A stretch of 64,000 nt of DNA from assembly GCA_030432595.1 (NCBI GenBank), contig JAUIGU010000016.1:1-64000 (forward strand). The letters run 5' to 3'. Numbering within the stretch: the stretch's first letter is position 1; every line of letters starts with the position of its first letter. The notes beneath the pieces are model-generated. The model searched no databases and had not been told where the DNA came from. It worked only from the letters and a program-made list of their open reading frames with translations. A program made the position numbers and the translations under genes. Shown in pieces: positions 5,967 to 13,682 of the stretch. The DNA comes from Phycisphaerae bacterium (GTDB lineage: Bacteria; Planctomycetota; Phycisphaerae; Phycisphaerales; Phycisphaeraceae).

Positions 5967-6169
5967 ATGGACCTAGACATTTTGGAAAATTTCGGGTTGA
6001 GCCAACGCCGCCCCATCAAAGCTAGAACGAGCCGAATCCATGTCGAAGTTTCTGGCGATGGTGTGGAGCGAATGAGCGAGTGGCCACTTGGGAGGGAGAC
6101 GACGCTGGGTGCCTGAAAATACGCAGGATCTGGTTTTTCCAGCCACAAACGTCAGATTTTGTGTTTTTG

Positions 6170-6197
6170 TATTGACATATATCAGTATTTGACAATA
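6170..6197 (+). promoter_or_regulatory. Imperfect inverted repeat upstream of the AbiEi-like gene
   Basis: The 28 bases hold two facing half-sites, TATTGACATATAT and (from the other strand) TATTGTCAAATAC, which agree at 10 of 13 positions. The repeat ends 9 bases before ATG 6207 and includes TTGACA. AbiEi-type antitoxins are known to repress their own promoters by binding inverted repeats, so this is a plausible operator. The surrounding 5967-6206 stretch is AT-rich and holds no gene I can support. Confidence 0.45.
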
Positions 6198-6206
6198 AAA
6201 CAACAC

Positions 6207-6812
6207 ATGGCCTCGACTGACCCCACCACCGAAATTCTCCGCATGGCGAAACAAGCCGGCGTGATCCGACGCCGCGATGTGACCGAACGGGGCATCCACC
6301 CTGAGTATCTGCGGCGACTTGTGGCTGCCAGAGAACTGGAGCGAGTCAGCCGGGGCATCTACTGCCTGGCCGAGGCCGAGGTCACCGAGCACCACCTGCT
6401 GGCCGTCGTGGCCGGACGCATCCCCGAGGGCGTGGTCTGCCTGCTCTCGGCGCTGCGCTTTCATGAACTGGGCACCCAGAGCCCCGGCCGGGTCTGGGTG
6501 GCCCTGGACCGCCGGGCCGCCAAACCTCAACTCACCGAACCCCGGGTCCACATAGTGAGATTCTCGGGTGCCGCGCTCACGCAAGGGGTTCAGACTCACC
6601 GCCTCGAAGGTGTCACGGTAAAGGTTTACTGCCCTGCAAAGACCGTGGCGGATTGCTTCAAATACCGCAACAAGACCGGATTGGACGTCGCGCTAGAGAG
6701 CCTTAAATCGGCACTGCATACACGGAAAGCAAGCATCGACGAGCTGCTCCGCTACGCCGACATCTGCCGCGTCCGCAAGGTCATGCAGCCTTACCTGAAT
6801 GCTTTGGTATGA
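6207..6812 (+). CDS. AbiEi-family antitoxin-like transcriptional regulator
   Basis: 201 residues. The N-terminal winged-helix part (about 8-60) reads ILRMAKQAGVIRRRDV...HPEYLRRLVAARELERVSRGIYCL, the usual 'AbiEi antitoxin domain' layout. The C-terminal part contains the family-like VHIVRFSG, VTVKVYCPAKTVADCFKYR and a helical tail. Such proteins normally pair with a downstream AbiEii nucleotidyltransferase toxin. Here the next gene, 84 bp on, lies on the other strand and is an XRE regulator, so no toxin partner is visible. ATG 6207 is preferred over an upstream in-frame start because the family N-terminus begins here. Confidence 0.8.
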   Translation: MASTDPTTEILRMAKQAGVIRRRDVTERGIHPEYLRRLVAARELERVSRGIYCLAEAEVTEHHLLAVVAGRIPEGVVCLLSALRFHELGTQSPGRVWVALDRRAAKPQLTEPRVHIVRFSGAALTQGVQTHRLEGVTVKVYCPAKTVADCFKYRNKTGLDVALESLKSALHTRKASIDELLRYADICRVRKVMQPYLNALV

Positions 6813-6895: not shown

Positions 6896-7303
6896 CTACG
6901 AATCACCTTGACGCGAGCGGATGAAGGCGAGGTACTCAAGAAGCTGCTTCTCTTCTTTATCGGTGAGTTCATGGCCTGCGAAGGCATTAGGCCGAGCTTT
7001 GCCCGCTTTTTTTCTGCCGGCCGAACGCAGCACGCCGGAAGCAGGGCTTGTTGACGCGGCGAGGTATCCAGCCTTCTCCATCAACGTTTCGTAAGCAACG
7101 CCGTAGGCCTCGGCTAGGGCGTGGAGAACGTTGGGAGAGGGGCGGGCGATCTTCCCGTTTTCGACCTGCGAGAGATACGCGTTTGAAACCCGCTTTTCGG
7201 TGGCCGCCTCGACATCACGAAGACTGAGCCCGTGTGAGCTGCGCAGCGTTGCCAAGTAAGCCCCCAAACCTTGTGGCTCCCTCGATTCTATTGCCGTAGT
7301 CAT
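6896..7303 (-). CDS. XRE-family helix-turn-helix regulator
   Basis: 135 residues. A Cro/C1-type helix-turn-helix fills about residues 11-70 (LGAYLATLRSSHGLSLRDVE...VSNAYLSQVENGKIARPSPNVLHALAEAYGV). A short linker and a Lys/Arg-rich tail ending LLEYLAFIRSRQGDS follow. A strong AGGAGG lies 8 bases before ATG 7303. It is transcribed divergently from the ubiquitin-like operon and shares a 174-bp control region with it. That region contains a 9-bp inverted repeat over both -35 boxes, so this is probably the operon's repressor and autorepressor. No linked ImmA/IrrE-type peptidase is seen. Confidence 0.88.
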   Translation of the reverse strand: MTTAIESREPQGLGAYLATLRSSHGLSLRDVEAATEKRVSNAYLSQVENGKIARPSPNVLHALAEAYGVAYETLMEKAGYLAASTSPASGVLRSAGRKKAGKARPNAFAGHELTDKEEKQLLEYLAFIRSRQGDS

Positions 7304-7339
7304 GAAAATCACCTCCTGAATGCAGCTTTCTAAGGCTCA

Positions 7340-7477: not shown

Positions 7478-8566
7478 ATGACCAATTCAACGACCGCTTG
7501 TGCAGCTTCTCCCAAATGGCGGGCCCTTGTGGACGACACCGCCATTCCGGCCCCCCGGCAAAAGGTTTCGGTGCAGGTCATCAAAAACCAGAGTGGCATC
7601 GGGGAGGAATTCGCCCTCGTCCGCGACCACAACTCACCTCACGATGTGGTCCTCGATGACGAGGCAGAGATTGATTTGTCGGAGGGCAACGTGTTCTATC
7701 GGGTGCGTCGCTGTGACCTACAGCCGCGGGATCGGTGCGATGCTCCAGCCAAGCTCGCGCTCTTTCTCGACGATCGTGCCGAGGTCACACTACGCCGAAC
7801 ACAGACGGGAACTCAGGTGCTCCAGCTTTTCGGGGCCCCCAAACACACCACGCTGGTTCGAGACCACGAAAGCCCGCACGACGAGGTTATTGAGGCGGAG
7901 GAGTCCGTCGACTTCTCCGATGGCCCGGTGTTTATCACTCGGTCGGTTGAGGCAGCGTTGCGTATCACCATCAACGCCCAGGTCTTCACAGAAACCGACG
8001 GCGTTAAACCGGAGATGACGGGCAACCAGATCGCTGCTCTCGTCTATCCGGAAAAGCCCGGCCAAACCCGCATCTGGCTCACCTCCGACGGAAACCGCGA
8101 GGTGGGCCAGCACGAAGTTCTCCACATCAAAGGGTGCGAATCGTTTGACGTGGTGCGACAGGGCGTAACCGGAGGGTTCGAACGCTCACGTGTAGAGCGT
8201 GAGCTAGACGGGCTGCGGGAAGGCGGGGCGAGTGTCACCTTTCACGACCAACCTCCGGCCGTGGTTTACCACGACGTTGCGGTCGCCGACGGTGGGCCAA
8301 TTAATGAAACCGATGTTTTGGTGGTCGTGCCTGGGGCGTACCCCGGTCAGATGCTTGACGGCGCCTACCTGCCGGATCGCTCCCCGCTTCTCGGACGAGT
8401 CAAAGGAGCCCCTCAGCAGAAGCTAATCAACGCACTTGGTCGCAGTTGGCGACTGGTTAGTTACCACCCGCACACCAACGGCGTGGGGCCGGCGTGGGAC
8501 CCCACCCGACACGGTTTTCACACCTACTTGGGGGAGGTGATGTCATGGCTACGCGATCTGAACTGA
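7478..8566 (+). CDS. Multiubiquitin (three Ubl repeats) fused to Prok-E2_E-like domain
   Basis: 362 residues from ATG 7478, which has GGAG 7 bases upstream; an in-frame GTG at 7424 lies further up. Three ubiquitin-like repeats can be traced at about residues 28-80, 91-155 and 161-233. The first two share a near-duplicate core (LVRDHNSPHDVVLDDE / LVRDHESPHDEVIEAE). The third ends in VTGG (230-233), like a mature Ubl C-terminus. Residues 241-362 resemble the Prok-E2_E family: VVVPGAYPGQMLDGAYLP, then WRLVSYHPHTNGVGPAW and HGFHTYLGEVMSWL. This E2-like part has no cysteine at all. It is followed by a JAB-E1 gene with a 22-base overlap. Inferred role: Ubl source and carrier of a conjugation or signalling system. 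Confidence 0.85.
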   Translation: MTNSTTACAASPKWRALVDDTAIPAPRQKVSVQVIKNQSGIGEEFALVRDHNSPHDVVLDDEAEIDLSEGNVFYRVRRCDLQPRDRCDAPAKLALFLDDRAEVTLRRTQTGTQVLQLFGAPKHTTLVRDHESPHDEVIEAEESVDFSDGPVFITRSVEAALRITINAQVFTETDGVKPEMTGNQIAALVYPEKPGQTRIWLTSDGNREVGQHEVLHIKGCESFDVVRQGVTGGFERSRVERELDGLREGGASVTFHDQPPAVVYHDVAVADGGPINETDVLVVVPGAYPGQMLDGAYLPDRSPLLGRVKGAPQQKLINALGRSWRLVSYHPHTNGVGPAWDPTRHGFHTYLGEVMSWLRDLN

Positions 8567-10080
8567 TCAAGGAAACACCACTAATCGAGTGCCACGAAAC
8601 CACCGGCCTGTTTCGCATCCGCGAGAGTGACCTGGAGCAGTTCTGCGGACATCTATTTCAGCGCTACCCCGAGCGCGAGTGGGGAAGCTTCTTTCGCTTC
8701 GGCTTTCGTCGCACAAGCCGCGGGATCGCACTCTCTTTTGTCTCTCCACTACTGCCCGAACCGGGCGACCTGGACCGACAATCGGGACTGACTCGGTTTG
8801 ACGCGGCTTACGCTCGCCGAGCGTTTCACGCCGCCGCGAGCGATGACGGGCTTGGCCTCGGAGTGGCCCATTCTCATCCTGAGGGCTGCCGCACGTCACC
8901 AAGCCTGCTTGACAATGACATGGACACGTATTTTTCCAAGCAGGTGGAGTCATATACCGGCGGGCGGCCTTACGCGAGTCTGATTTTCTCTTCGAACGCC
9001 AAAGGGGAACTGAGCTTCTCCGGTCGAGTGTATGACCGCGGTAGCTGGTTTGGCGTGAGGGACCTCGTCACCGTAGGCGATCGTGTCCGACGAATCCGCT
9101 CTCAACTTGTATCCGACACCAATAAGCACGGGACCGGCGAAACGGCAATCACCAACGGGAGGCTTCGGTCGCTCATGGGTGACGCCTCGGCAGCACGGCT
9201 AGCGGACGCCACGGTAGGGGTGATTGGCTGTAGCGGGACAGGTTCGCCGGCCGTCGAGGTGCTTGCACGGGCTGGGGTCGGCTCTTTCGTTTTGGTTGAT
9301 CCGGAACGCCTCAGCGTATCCAACCTCGAACGCCTTCACGGGAGCCACTTCGAGCACCTTCGCCTCGACCCGAAACCCTACAAGGTGGAACTGATGCGTT
9401 CGATGATCCGCCGGATCAACCCCGCCGCCCACGTGGTTAGCTTGGTCGGCAACGTCCTGCACGAAAACGTCATCGACAGGCTTGTTTACGCGGACATCGT
9501 TCTTGGCTGCACCGACTCGATGCACGGTCGCGTCGCGCTTGATGAGCTCGCCCGGAATTACTTGGTGGCGTCTATCGATGTCGGAGTGCGTATGGGAGGG
9601 CGATGCGGCCGAATTGATGAGCAAGTGATCGAACACGCTCTGTACGGGCCGACGCACCCGTGTCTTTTTTGCCGTAAAAAAGTTGACGCTCAACGGCTGG
9701 CCTACGAGTTGATGCCCGACACTGAGCGCCACGAACGCGAAGCCCAGGCGGAAGCGGCGCGGGAGTGCGGCATCGACGGGGATCAGTATTGGCAGGGAAG
9801 GCCTCGCGAACTCCACACGGTCGGCTACCTCACGACGGTAGCGGGCGCGATGGCGGCAGGCTATGCCGAGGGAGTACTCACGGGCACGTTTTCGCCCCCG
9901 CACCCAGAACATCAGTTCGACTTCGCAACACCCCGCTTCGGGGTCGTCTCGCCACCCCTGAAAGCTCGCGAAAGCTGCGGGTGTTTGGCTCGCATGGGCT
10001 GGGGAGATGCCGCACGGCCGCACACCAATTTGGCCGCTCCGCCTCATTTCGGGCGACGCGCTGTAGAGCTTGGGGAGTAG
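8545..10080 (+). CDS. JAB deubiquitinase-like domain fused to ThiF/E1-like domain
   Basis: 511 residues from ATG 8545, with GGAGGTGA just upstream. N-terminal JAB/JAMM metalloprotease (about 15-160): E45 in EREWGS, then H109-S-H111-P and SLLD with D123, the complete zinc-ligand set. C-terminal E1/ThiF fold (about 210-490): glycine-rich GVIGCSGTGSPAVE (225-238), VDPERLSVSNLERL with D252 and R263, K280, and a conserved CTDS. CxxC (373, 376) and CxC (478, 480) may form a zinc site. Candidate catalytic cysteines include C354 and C408. It should activate the Ubl (E1) and process or remove it (JAB). It overlaps the Ubl-E2 gene and is followed by the ATPase gene. Confidence 0.88.
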   Translation: MATRSELIKETPLIECHETTGLFRIRESDLEQFCGHLFQRYPEREWGSFFRFGFRRTSRGIALSFVSPLLPEPGDLDRQSGLTRFDAAYARRAFHAAASDDGLGLGVAHSHPEGCRTSPSLLDNDMDTYFSKQVESYTGGRPYASLIFSSNAKGELSFSGRVYDRGSWFGVRDLVTVGDRVRRIRSQLVSDTNKHGTGETAITNGRLRSLMGDASAARLADATVGVIGCSGTGSPAVEVLARAGVGSFVLVDPERLSVSNLERLHGSHFEHLRLDPKPYKVELMRSMIRRINPAAHVVSLVGNVLHENVIDRLVYADIVLGCTDSMHGRVALDELARNYLVASIDVGVRMGGRCGRIDEQVIEHALYGPTHPCLFCRKKVDAQRLAYELMPDTERHEREAQAEAARECGIDGDQYWQGRPRELHTVGYLTTVAGAMAAGYAEGVLTGTFSPPHPEHQFDFATPRFGVVSPPLKARESCGCLARMGWGDAARPHTNLAAPPHFGRRAVELGE

Positions 10081-10123
10081 GACCATGCTTCTCACACATG
10101 GACCAATATCGCCGGTTGACGGT

Positions 10124-10237
10124 TTGTTCGAATCAGGTGTAAGATGCGACCGCAATCGAACATACAGCGGTATACTCCCTTTAAATCATGATTATTTTGT
10201 GTTCGATTCTGACGAAGGTAAATACGTGAGTCGAACA
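10124..10237 (+). promoter_or_regulatory. AT-rich control region with four TGTTCGA-type sites
   Basis: Between the JAB-E1 stop (10080) and the probable ATPase start (10226), base composition turns AT-rich and TGTTCGA occurs four times in alternating orientation: 10125-10131 (+), 10156-10162 (-), 10200-10206 (+), 10231-10237 (-). The middle pair extends to a perfect 9-bp inverted repeat (AATCGAACA / TGTTCGATT). TATACT at 10171-10176 could be a -10. This looks like a second, separately regulated promoter for the ATPase and protease genes. Confidence 0.5.
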
Positions 10238-11356
10238 AAACGCTTAGAGGCCTGGCTTCCCAAAATCACCGAGGCCGGCCTGTCCGGAGACCCCCGGAAG
10301 CTCGAATTGGTCGTCGTTCGGGCAATACGCGTCCTCAAAAGCGATCTTCCCGAGGTCAGCAAACAACTGGGTTCGCTGCTCTCGGAACACGCAGCAAACC
10401 CGGGGGCACTGCGCCGTGGGCGCACCAGCCCCCCTCCGGTGGACTCCGACGAGGGGCTTTCGCTCGTTCGCGCGGAGGACGTGGACGATGCCCCGACACC
10501 GGTGATGCCGAAGCGGGTGTCCAACTGCGTCGACCAGTTCATCACGGAGCGACGCGAGGCGAAGCGTTTGCTTGCTGAAGGGTTTCTTCCGCCGGGCTCG
10601 TTGCTGCTGACCGGATCTCCGGGAACGGGCAAGACCATGCTCTCGCGGTGGGTGGCGCAGCAGCTCGGCTTGCCGTTCATCACGCTCGACCTGGCAACTT
10701 CGATTTCGAGTTTCCTGGGCAAGACCGGCTTCAACCTTCGCCGGTCGCTTGATTACGCCCGCTCCCATCCCTGCGTCCTGCTCTTGGACGAGTTCGACGC
10801 CATCGCGAAGCGCCGAGATGACGACACCGAGATCGGTGAGCTGAAGCGGATTGTGAATGTGCTACTCAAAGAACTTGAGGACTGGCCGCTGAACTCGGTG
10901 TTGATCGCGGCCACCAACCACCCGGAGCTTTTAGACCGTGCGGTGGAACGCCGCTTTGACCTCACCTTAGAGCTGCCGCTGCCGGAAGAAAAAGAGCGGG
11001 AGAAAATCCTCCGTTTCGCGGCGGGCAGGTTCGCCGAGGAGCTTCCTCCGTCGATGTTACCCGCCATCGCCAGTTCTTTGGACGGGGCGAGTGGCTCGGA
11101 TTGCAATTCGCTAGTCACCGCGGCCGTGCGTCGACATCTTTCGGGCGGAGTCGAATTCACTCGCTGTTTGATTGATGCATTTCGCGCTCAATCTGCAAAC
11201 AAACTCGGTGGGAAAAATTTGGGTGAGCTAATTCGCGGTCTCCAAGCCGGAAACGGTACGCAATATAAGGTGCGTGAACTCGCCGAACTCTTCGGCCGAA
11301 GCCCATCGACGATTCAACATCATTTGAAGAAGGGGGAGAAGTCCAATGGCAAGTAA
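10226..11356 (+). CDS. AAA+ ATPase (IetA-like) with C-terminal helix-turn-helix
   Basis: 376 residues from GTG 10226, which follows GAAGG by 7 bases. An upstream in-frame ATG (10085) would add a low-complexity, AT-rich stretch that I read as regulatory DNA. An N-terminal helical part (1-95) precedes one AAA+ module: Walker A GSPGTGKT (130-137), Walker B LLLDEFDA (185-192), sensor-1 ATN (N231) and arginine finger in DRAVERRFD (R242/R243). The tail (346-368, RELAELFGRSPSTIQHHLKK) looks like a helix-turn-helix. Its stop overlaps the S8 protease start by 11 bases. The ATPase plus subtilisin pair matches the architecture of IetAS-type defence modules; function here is inferred. Confidence 0.85.
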   Translation: MSRTKRLEAWLPKITEAGLSGDPRKLELVVVRAIRVLKSDLPEVSKQLGSLLSEHAANPGALRRGRTSPPPVDSDEGLSLVRAEDVDDAPTPVMPKRVSNCVDQFITERREAKRLLAEGFLPPGSLLLTGSPGTGKTMLSRWVAQQLGLPFITLDLATSISSFLGKTGFNLRRSLDYARSHPCVLLLDEFDAIAKRRDDDTEIGELKRIVNVLLKELEDWPLNSVLIAATNHPELLDRAVERRFDLTLELPLPEEKEREKILRFAAGRFAEELPPSMLPAIASSLDGASGSDCNSLVTAAVRRHLSGGVEFTRCLIDAFRAQSANKLGGKNLGELIRGLQAGNGTQYKVRELAELFGRSPSTIQHHLKKGEKSNGK

Positions 11357-13682
11357 TCAGCGGCGCCTGATTCTCGGCAACGGTGAGGCCTACGTTCAGC
11401 GATTTGAGAAGAAGTTCAACGCGAGACCTCCGGTACCTCCCCGAACGTTTGACGAAGCTCGCGCACTGCTCAAGGCCGCAATCAATACCTCACTAGATGC
11501 GTTTGAGAACCTCGACGCAACGAAGAAGATCGAAGACGAAGCGGTCTTCTGCCTTCGCTTGCACCCCGACGTGACGGCGAAGAGTTACAGCCCCGAAGCG
11601 ATCTTCAGCAAAGTGCCGGAACTGAGAAGCATTGGTTCGCGAATTTACCGCGTCGGGGCCGAGGAGGTGGCTCAGACCAAGCGTGTGAAGAAACAGGTCG
11701 GTGATGGTGCTGAGCGCTTTGATGCACGGATGCTCTTCGTGCAGAGCTCGCCGGATGGGTTTCGGCGACTTGACCGATTTTTAGACCTACGCGAGTCTCA
11801 ACAGACCAAAGAGTTTCGTCGCGAGATTTGTCGAGTGGAGAACCTAGATGTGCTCCGGGCCGAGGAACAGCTTGTCGGTTTCGGAGACCGCTGGAAAGAG
11901 GGGCGCGTCGAGTTGGTGATCCATCCGTTCCGCACTACGGATGAAGCACAGCAAGAGTTTCTGTTTGAGCTCTTCGACCAGGCTGGCATTGACCGAGAGA
12001 CCGCCACGGTCCGTCCGTATGCGGGCGGACCGACGTTTGTCTCCTGCCGGGCATCTAAGGCGGCGTTAGGCCGGCTAGCCGGAGCCAATCCGTTGCGTTC
12101 GGCTCACCCGCTGCGATTCGGCGGGCTCAAGAAGCTTCGCAACGCCCCCAAAGCCAACGGACCCAAGCCGCCAAGTTCGACCACCCGGTCAACGATCAAG
12201 GTCGGAGTTTTCGATGGGGGCATCGACCCTTTTGCGCCGCTGCTTCGCGGCCACGCCGAAGAAGATGAGGAGTTGTCAATCGGCACGCCCGCCGAACTTG
12301 ACTACTTAGAGCACGGAACCGCGGTAGCGGGTGCGGTGCTTCACGGTTCATTGACCAGCTACGGCCCGAAGGATCGGCTTCCCACACCGCCGGTTTATGT
12401 TGTGAGCTTCCGCGTGTTTCCCGCCTCAAACCCGGATGACGTGGATCTGTACGAGGCAATCGACCTGGTCGAGAACGCGGTACCGTCGCGTCCAGATATT
12501 AAGGTGTTCAATCTGAGCTTCGGCCCGGAAGGCCCCATTGATGATGACCCGGTGTCTCGCTTTACCTACGTGCTGGATTCGCTTGCGGTTGCTCACAAGG
12601 TGACGTTTTGTGTGGCGGTAGGAAATGACGGCGATGTGGAGGGTGAGTCCCGAATTCAGTCGCCCTCCGACCTCGTACACGGACTCGGTGTTGGTGCGTA
12701 CACCCTTGAAGGAGATCGCGTTGTTCACGCGGACTACTCCTGCCACGGCCCGGGGCGGGAGTGCGGCAAGATCAAACCCGACGTCACGGCGTTTGGCGGC
12801 TGCGAGGTTCGTCCCACGCATCTTGTTTCCGTGGACCCCAACCAAAAGGTATTGGATTGGGGGACAAGCTACGCAGCACCGATTGCGTCGGCACTGACCG
12901 CACAAGCAGCCGAATCCTTCGAGCGAAGCTCCGCGTTGCTTGGCAGAGCCCTGATGGTTCACACAGCGAGCCATCCGGACGGAGATCCTGACCATCTGCT
13001 GGGACACGGGGTGATCGAAAGGAGCATCGATGAGGTGCTCTTGTGTGACGAGCACAGCGTGACCGTTGTGTTTCAGGGCGGCTTGGTACCGAAGCAGGTG
13101 GTCAGGCTCCCGATCCCGTGGACCGGAAAGCAAGAAGTGTCGGGGACGGTTGATATCACCTGGACGATCGCAGCGCTCTCGGGTATCGACCCCAGTCATC
13201 CGGGCGACTACACCTCCTGCTGCCTCGAAGACACCTTTTACCCCAACGAGAGCAAGTTCAGGTTTAGCGCCCCGTCGGACTGGACGGGCCGCCCGAAGCA
13301 GCGGATTCTCCACGTTGAAAAAGACAAGGACGAAGCCGAGTCCCTGATCGCGCAGGGCTGGAAATGCTCACATACACCAGTCTCCGACTCCGGAAATCAG
13401 TACCGCGACGAGTTGAGCCGCCGGAAGCTCGACTGCAAATGGGAATCGATCGTGCGGCGCTACAAGCCCAATAAGCCAGGGAAGGGAATCGAGCGCCCGT
13501 TTCTGACGCTACACGCGATCGGGAGAAACGGGGCCTCCCAACGCTTCGACTACGCCGTGGCGGTAACGCTTCGGGCGAAGACCTTTAGCGGCGACCTGTA
13601 CACGGTCGTCCGAAACGAGTTCCCCGCACTCGCCCCAATTCGGCTACGAACTGAGGCCGAGACGCGTATTCAGATTGCATGA
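11346..13682 (+). CDS. Subtilisin-like (S8) serine protease, IetS-like
   Basis: 778 residues. ATG 11346 lies inside the ATPase gene end and is preceded by GGGGGAG. The N-terminal domain (about 1-275) is not catalytic (EAVFCLRLHPDVTAKSYSPE, IGSRIYRVG) and resembles that of proteases paired with AAA+ partners. The S8 catalytic core follows: D290 (VGVFDGG), H323 (LEHGTAVAG), oxyanion N427 (VAVGNDG) and S508 (WGTSYAAP), so all key residues are present. About 200 C-terminal residues form an extra beta-rich region. There is no signal peptide, so it is probably cytoplasmic. Likely effector of the four-gene system, perhaps degrading Ubl-marked or phage-triggered targets; this is inference. Confidence 0.88.
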   Translation: MASNQRRLILGNGEAYVQRFEKKFNARPPVPPRTFDEARALLKAAINTSLDAFENLDATKKIEDEAVFCLRLHPDVTAKSYSPEAIFSKVPELRSIGSRIYRVGAEEVAQTKRVKKQVGDGAERFDARMLFVQSSPDGFRRLDRFLDLRESQQTKEFRREICRVENLDVLRAEEQLVGFGDRWKEGRVELVIHPFRTTDEAQQEFLFELFDQAGIDRETATVRPYAGGPTFVSCRASKAALGRLAGANPLRSAHPLRFGGLKKLRNAPKANGPKPPSSTTRSTIKVGVFDGGIDPFAPLLRGHAEEDEELSIGTPAELDYLEHGTAVAGAVLHGSLTSYGPKDRLPTPPVYVVSFRVFPASNPDDVDLYEAIDLVENAVPSRPDIKVFNLSFGPEGPIDDDPVSRFTYVLDSLAVAHKVTFCVAVGNDGDVEGESRIQSPSDLVHGLGVGAYTLEGDRVVHADYSCHGPGRECGKIKPDVTAFGGCEVRPTHLVSVDPNQKVLDWGTSYAAPIASALTAQAAESFERSSALLGRALMVHTASHPDGDPDHLLGHGVIERSIDEVLLCDEHSVTVVFQGGLVPKQVVRLPIPWTGKQEVSGTVDITWTIAALSGIDPSHPGDYTSCCLEDTFYPNESKFRFSAPSDWTGRPKQRILHVEKDKDEAESLIAQGWKCSHTPVSDSGNQYRDELSRRKLDCKWESIVRRYKPNKPGKGIERPFLTLHAIGRNGASQRFDYAVAVTLRAKTFSGDLYTVVRNEFPALAPIRLRTEAETRIQIA

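Follow-up and report, generated by a model that had tools for sequence, protein, structure and literature searches.

Eukaryotic ubiquitin is made as precursors, either in fusion with ribosomal proteins or as polyubiquitin, from which a DUB frees the ubiquitin-like unit (Ubl) at its C-terminal GG. In the bacterial Bub pathway, the described system closest to the locus reported here, transfer proceeds through oxyester rather than thioester intermediates. As Bub references we used the Citrobacter entries of the PDB (9d59, 9d5a, 9ea4, 9ea5, 9ea8, 9eae, and 9eav) and the plasmid relative LC735984. A single 362-residue protein of the Citrobacter plasmid covers both the BubA and the BubB parts. Chains of its near relatives in the PDB end at G229 (9d59_A, 9ea8_B) or start at residue 230 (9eae_C), and the mature ends therefore coincide with the joint; 9eav_D aligns from residue 228, and its first letters look to us like a tag remnant. 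Operons of similar layout appear in row 6e of Iyer 2006 (PMC1779556), whose passages on them describe multi-Ubl proteins with an optional fused RWD/E2-like domain together with JAB-E1, hold the E2-like domain, where fused, to be inactive for want of a cysteine, and already in 2006 predict that JAB processes such Ubls; those passages name no cut that would part Ubl from E2. For the Bil system (BilABCD), the relevant section of a 2024 review (PMC11354881) reports that the JAB protease BilC processes BilA, exposing its C-terminal glycine, that Ubl, E2, JAB, and E1 are separate proteins, and that E1 and E2 use cysteines.

The window, by which we mean the whole stretch of 64,000 nucleotides analyzed from a Phycisphaerae bacterium, carries a member of the already known Bub kind (Table 1). 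As in Citrobacter, three Ubls and an E2 are encoded as one protein with a glycine at the joint, the JAB domain is N-terminal to the E1, and the Ubl-E2 gene precedes a JAB-E1 gene that overlaps it. Differences from Citrobacter lie in the joint, which reads TGG in the window and NNG in Citrobacter; in the JAB-E1 cysteines C373, C376, C478, and C480, which are invariant in the window's own group and missing from the Citrobacter row; and in what follows, the third gene of the Citrobacter operon being DUF6527, whereas the window has IetAS-like genes. DUF6527, which we take to be BubE, was not found in the window's own genome (E 0.001), an absence that lowers the case for a typical Bub system, not for a Bub-like one. 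The marks of a Bub operon found here are a protein with one to three beta-grasp Ubls beside an E1 (Multi_ubiq above its cut-off, and the folds), a JAB domain with intact ligands at the N-terminus of that E1, an E2 of the BubB/Prok-E2_E type (from the fold match to 9eae_C, the Pfam score being below cut-off), and, judged by position and conservation, a Ubl C-terminal glycine reached via processing or a stop codon. With the row 6e operons, as those passages describe them, the window shares the multi-Ubl protein, the cysteine-free E2-like domain fused at its C-terminus, and JAB-E1. Maturation of the Ubl by JAB to expose a glycine would be common to the window and Bil, but Bil keeps all four parts as separate proteins, and no cysteine lies within the window's E2 domain. 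Like eukaryotic ubiquitin, the window's Ubl is made as a fusion with a C-terminal GG at the joint; unlike ubiquitin, it is joined to the E2-like domain of its own pathway, and the last of the three Ubls alone has the putative processing glycine.

Table 1. Features of the Bub-like locus and its neighbors, with positions in the window
Feature	Positions	Strand	Basis
XRE-type helix-turn-helix regulator, divergently oriented, perhaps equivalent to CapH	6896..7312	-	Pfam HTH_31, 51.4 bits
Fused three-Ubl and E2-like protein (BubAB-like), putative precursor, 362 aa	7478..8566	+	Pfam, model, fold matches
Ubl repeat 1 (residues ~14-77)	7517..7708	+	Strand-strand-helix-strand in model
Ubl repeat 2 (residues ~91-157)	7748..7948	+	Pfam Multi_ubiq; fold
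Ubl repeat 3 and tail (residues 161-233), candidate unit for activation	7958..8176	+	Fold
TGG (residues 231-233), with the putative cut directly past the G233 codon (8176/8177)	8168..8176	+	Position, conservation, model
E2-like domain (residues 236-362), without cysteine, S328-x-H330 motif	8183..8563	+	Fold
JAB-E1 fusion (BubCD-like), 511 aa	8545..10080	+	Pfam, phmmer, Foldseek
JAB domain	~8602-9099	+	
E1 domain	~9151-10023	+	
IetA-like AAA ATPase	10085..11356	+	PADLOC IetA, 272.4 bits; ATG 4 bases past JAB-E1 stop
IetS-like S8 peptidase	11346..13682	+	PADLOC IetS, 181.7 bits; overlaps IetA-like gene

The Ubl-E2 frame opens with an ATG at 7478 and closes with a TGA at 8564-8566. Pfam Multi_ubiq matches residues 96-152 at 29.4 bits, above its cut-off of 24.5, and Prok-E2_E matches residues 262-358 at 20.9 bits, which falls short of the 25 bits set as its cut-off. 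An AlphaFold2 model built on 6 sequences is of moderate quality (mean pLDDT 73.7, pTM 0.38; the five models range from 73.7 to 45.0) and consists of three beta-grasp units followed by an E2-like fold. The best Foldseek matches of this model are bacterial multi-ubiquitin proteins (9cd2, 9d5a, 8u38), with the BubB chain 9eae_C at rank 13; the Ubl domains have fold matches to 9cd2, 9d5a, 9d59, and 8u38, the last of which is named 'Ubl-BilA'. Taken singly, repeat 1 (model residues 13-80) aligns with 9ea8_B, BubA(155-229), at Z 8.2; repeat 2 with BubA in 9d59_A at Z 9.4 (rmsd 2.2, 70 residues); and repeat 3 (model residues 161-230) with ubiquitin 1-74 at Z ~7.5. In VIA-align, the E2 region matches Citrobacter BubB 9eae_C at Z 12.1 (rmsd 2.7, 116 residues), and eukaryotic E2s score lower (Z <=9.4). 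A PDB sequence search with the Ubl-E2 protein and then with its profile gave no relative, so the link to BubA and BubB is one of fold only; HisB, considered as a sequence relative, was rejected as a chance match (E 0.33). The only cysteines of the protein (C8, C79, C87, and C220) all lie outside the E2 domain. They are invariant across the window's group of six, where a metal site or disulfide is possible. All 27 rows compared keep the S-x-H of the E2 domain, Mesorhizobium, which has a gap there, being scored by eye.

At the joint, the bases ACC GGA GGG are in frame, and VTGG spans residues 230-233. The translation agrees with the earlier note's placing of TGG between the third Ubl repeat and the E2-like domain, and with its statement that only repeat 3 ends in GG: pairs occur at residues 232, 249, and 272 alone, and repeats 1 and 2 have none. 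Three pairs compare with 2.5 expected by chance at 8.3% Gly, so the GG motif by itself is not significant; it is the position and conservation of the site that are non-chance. A helix had been expected directly after VTGG, and the model has one at residues 238-248. Nor is the joint buried in a folded strand, a placement that would have spoken against a cut: pLDDT is below 50 at residues 230-235, between a strand (221-227) and that helix. Disorder as a property unique to the joint was rejected, pLDDT falling below 50 in three further segments (1-13, 154-159, and 331-336). VIA-align sets residue 230 at ubiquitin 74 consistently across rows, and G232, not G233, therefore falls on ubiquitin G76, an offset of one read from a tail that is both the end of the alignment and a low-confidence stretch.

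Conservation singles out the last glycine. V230 and G233 are invariant in all six aligned fused proteins (the window and 5 relatives), and residue 232 is split evenly between Gly and Ala (three rows each). Conservation of GG as a pair was therefore rejected, and G233 is the residue that matters; the earlier expectation that GG would be kept among homologues survives for G233 and fails for G232, which is Ala in half of these rows and gives way to NG, EG, or AG joints in distant fusions. Every fused row (16/16) has a glycine at the Ubl/E2 boundary, although one, G178, is weakly aligned there. The joint is GG or AG within the window's own group, Citrobacter and R. gallicum share NNG, seven plasmid proteins have TTEG or TTAG there, and G178 has DYG. 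Where Ubl and E2 are separate genes (11 operons), seven Ubls stop exactly at the glycine and need no processing, and four carry a tail past it, of 1 residue in Methylocystis, 3 in Celeribacter (after TTEG), 6 in G090, and 8 in Bradyrhizobium (after TTEG); a tail is thus not universal. Past the boundary, translation stops at once, continues for a few residues, or goes on through an entire E2, which is the pattern expected if all that lies beyond the glycine is removed. Operons thus differ in whether translation halts at this joint or reads through it, a natural test that makes the processing site predictable from sequence, and the rule for it is the last glycine, not the GG pair.

These rows are not a random or statistical sample, since the 16 fused and 11 split cases were chosen by eye and many are related. 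The plasmid searches returned 193 and 182 records, from which 20 regions were compared, chosen by eye for variety of species and layout; two of the relative loci, L003 and L005, are near copies over much of their length. Among 13 Multi_ubiq loci of the same phylum, two (L022 and L023, below cut-off and inside long frames) were dropped before counting, L020 was counted as the fused row G178, and the remaining 10 were kept out of the 11 split pairs. In these 10 stand-alone proteins, a glycine lies <=6 residues from the end in seven and none is near the end in three. The latter (L011, L014, and L016) end in TDKS or DDNS. On a Chroococcidiopsis plasmid (L046, 1107-1404), a separate E2 is followed by a 438-base gene annotated as Mov34/MPN/PAD-1 and not as ThiF, so JAB may be a separate gene there. 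The Ubl-E2 protein had matches in 3 of 392 genomes of the phylum, its own included, and when 21 genomes were searched again with a profile, G090 alone matched. Only 4 of 43 pattern matches in genome contigs were relatives, so the pattern scan detects close relatives only; within that reach it found none in plasmids and none in phages, and none of 19 pattern-matching stretches in viral contigs was confirmed.

The start ATG of the JAB-E1 gene overlaps the 3' end of the Ubl-E2 gene. Its product matches Pfam ThiF at 96.2 bits and Prok-JAB weakly (16.5 bits, cut-off 25), and the JAB assignment therefore rests on the ligands and the fold match to BubCD. The best phmmer match in the PDB is BubCD in 9ea5 (E 2.7e-12), with TcdA and ThiF next (1.3e-11 to 1.4e-11). 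Foldseek ranks 1 to 8 for the JAB-E1 model (mean pLDDT 64.8) are all Citrobacter BubCD chains, among them 9ea8, 'BubCD(D104A)-BubA(155-229)'. VIA-align does not separate ThiF, MoeB, and BubCD (all at Z 25-26); BubCD spans both domains but at an rmsd of ~22, which means that the way the domains are arranged is not recovered. The zinc ligands reported earlier as complete are indeed all intact (H109, H111, and D123), and together with S120 and E45 they are invariant in 7 of 7 rows. H109, H111, S120, and D123 correspond to Citrobacter H91, H93, S101, and D104 in 13 of 13 rows, D104 being the residue mutated in 9ea5, 9ea8, 9eae, and 9eav. In the E1 half, Y415 corresponds to Y370, which is mutated in 9eav, and is kept in 12 of 13 rows, the Terrarubrum row being gapped.

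We consider it very probable that the Ubl-E2 protein is a Bub-type precursor that JAB cuts after G233, the freed Ubl being activated by E1 and conjugated via E2. The proposal of the earlier note, JAB processing after Gly-Gly, is supported by the conserved joint glycine, the linker, and the Bub-like layout, with the correction that G233 and not the pair is critical. In the pathway that we infer, from cleavage and the identity of the protease through adenylation and conjugation to a target, the Ubl-E2 gene would supply three BubA-like beta-grasp domains and a BubB-like E2-fold domain as one chain. The JAB domain of the BubCD-like neighbor would cut this chain after G233, so that the E2 would become a protein of its own and the three Ubl domains would together end in a glycine; that glycine would be adenylated by the E1 half, the Ubl would pass through the E2 to its target, and JAB might later remove the conjugated Ubl. 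The lack of cysteine in residues 234-362, the S-x-H motif, and Y415 would fit the oxyester chemistry of Bub. Several results speak against this reading: the offset of one residue from ubiquitin G76, the three stand-alone Multi_ubiq proteins that have no glycine near their end, the seven separate Ubls that need no processing, the link to BubA and BubB by fold alone from a model of moderate quality, and the view of Iyer 2006 that the fused E2-like domain is inactive. A Ubl-E2 fusion with a predicted cleavable-glycine joint, as in the structurally solved Citrobacter protein, extends to distant bacteria.

Downstream of JAB-E1, PADLOC finds the IetAS order of an AAA ATPase followed by an S8 peptidase, with both NCBIfam scores below cut-off (IteA 233.5 bits, cut-off 510; IteS 153.5 bits, cut-off 900); the peptidase also matches Pfam Peptidase_S8 at 97 bits. 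Just 4 bases part the JAB-E1 gene from the IetA-like gene, which in turn overlaps the IetS-like gene, an arrangement that looks like a single operon; this direct run into IetAS is the unusual feature of the locus. G+C content is 58-61% in the four genes against 64.5% in the whole window. IetAS was found beside none of seven relative loci, where the sequence downstream of JAB-E1 extends only ~0.6 kb in L005 and ~1.5 kb in L004. We also surveyed the phylum for IetA, with 53 matching genomes and loci from 30 of them: JAB-E1 was absent from the ~1.5-kb flanks of the 29 loci other than the window, and IetS was also matched in only 4 of the 30, the window included, so the others may be other AAA ATPases. 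IetAS as a regular partner was rejected on these counts (0/7 relatives, 1/30 IetA-matching loci). Gene spacing and the absence of DUF6527 are the sole evidence for a coupling in which conjugates of the JAB-matured Ubl would be recognized by the ATPase and then passed on to the subtilase, which would stand in for the DUF6527 gene of other Bub operons, and we consider this coupling unlikely. Since IetAS is not beside the relatives and JAB-E1 is not beside other IetA genes, a chance neighborhood within a defense island is the likelier explanation; the association may be peculiar to this genome, or the genes may simply reside together in such an island. If true, the coupling would be a bacterial counterpart of ubiquitin-proteasome logic, and with a real link the function of a Bub-type system could be put to the test. 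No paper linking IetAS to ubiquitin was found in the literature covered, mostly without subscription papers, and the relevant part of a 2026 EMBO J paper states that phage protection by Bub operons is not demonstrated (PMC13373217).

The joint glycine and the JAB ligands also bear on whether the fusion is cut at all. The TGG stretch might be a flexible linker in a fusion that is never cut, and the Ubl repeats might then serve their E2 domain in cis, for instance by docking or by forming filaments. Gly-rich flexible linkers are common, GG occurs in this protein at chance frequency, and G232 is not conserved; against this, the conserved G233 is the very position at which the Ubl gene stops in 7 of the 11 operons with separate genes, and the neighboring protein retains every JAB ligand, and we regard an uncut fusion as quite unlikely. 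Cleavage after G233 could also be the work of another protease, either a host enzyme or the IetS-like subtilase, which is encoded in the same direction in a run of overlapping or near-touching genes in a genome without a detected DUF6527 gene. IetAS is, however, beside none of the seven relatives, whereas JAB-E1 adjoins all seven (with little downstream sequence in L004 and L005), and PDB entries pair JAB with BubA; a protease other than JAB is in our judgment very unlikely.

It is highly improbable that the Ubl is instead a sulfur carrier of the ThiS/MoaD type, freed by JAB for thiocarboxylation and not for protein conjugation. ThiF and MoeB do fit the E1 half as well as BubCD does (Z 25.6 and 25.2, respectively), and a Terrarubrum relative combines a Ubl ending in GG plus 10 residues with JAB-E1 and nearby SufE and MoaD genes, with no E2 annotated. 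The window, by contrast, has an E2-fold domain and Y415, which is missing only from the gapped Terrarubrum row, and no sulfur-metabolism gene was seen within its operon. The Terrarubrum plasmid locus itself (L024, 6690-8458) has a gene for a single Ubl, and the JAB-E1 gene with which it overlaps has lost the tyrosine of Y415; a MoeB-like gene is also nearby, the stretch without an annotated E2 is 15.4 kb, and the locus is possibly a sulfur-transfer offshoot.

Regulators accompany many Bub operons, CapW or CapH plus CapP being found with 219 of 544 according to the part of PMC13373217 that treats them. An XRE-like gene comparable to the divergent regulator of the window is present at two of the seven relative loci (L005 and L030), and a CapP-type peptidase of family M78 was not found in the window's own genome. 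An AbiEi-type antitoxin gene (6159-6812; Pfam AbiEi_4, 44.9 bits) adjoins the operon, and proteins encoded nearby end in VPEP-type motifs, which on inspection by eye suggest Planctomycetota.

Multi-Ubl proteins that form Ca2+-dependent filaments were reportedly described by Gong in 2025. Repeats 1 and 2 of the window's protein have in common an RDH(N/E)SPHD-type motif (7622-7645 and 7859-7882) whose acidic residues could bind a cation; the motif is kept in 6 of 6 rows.
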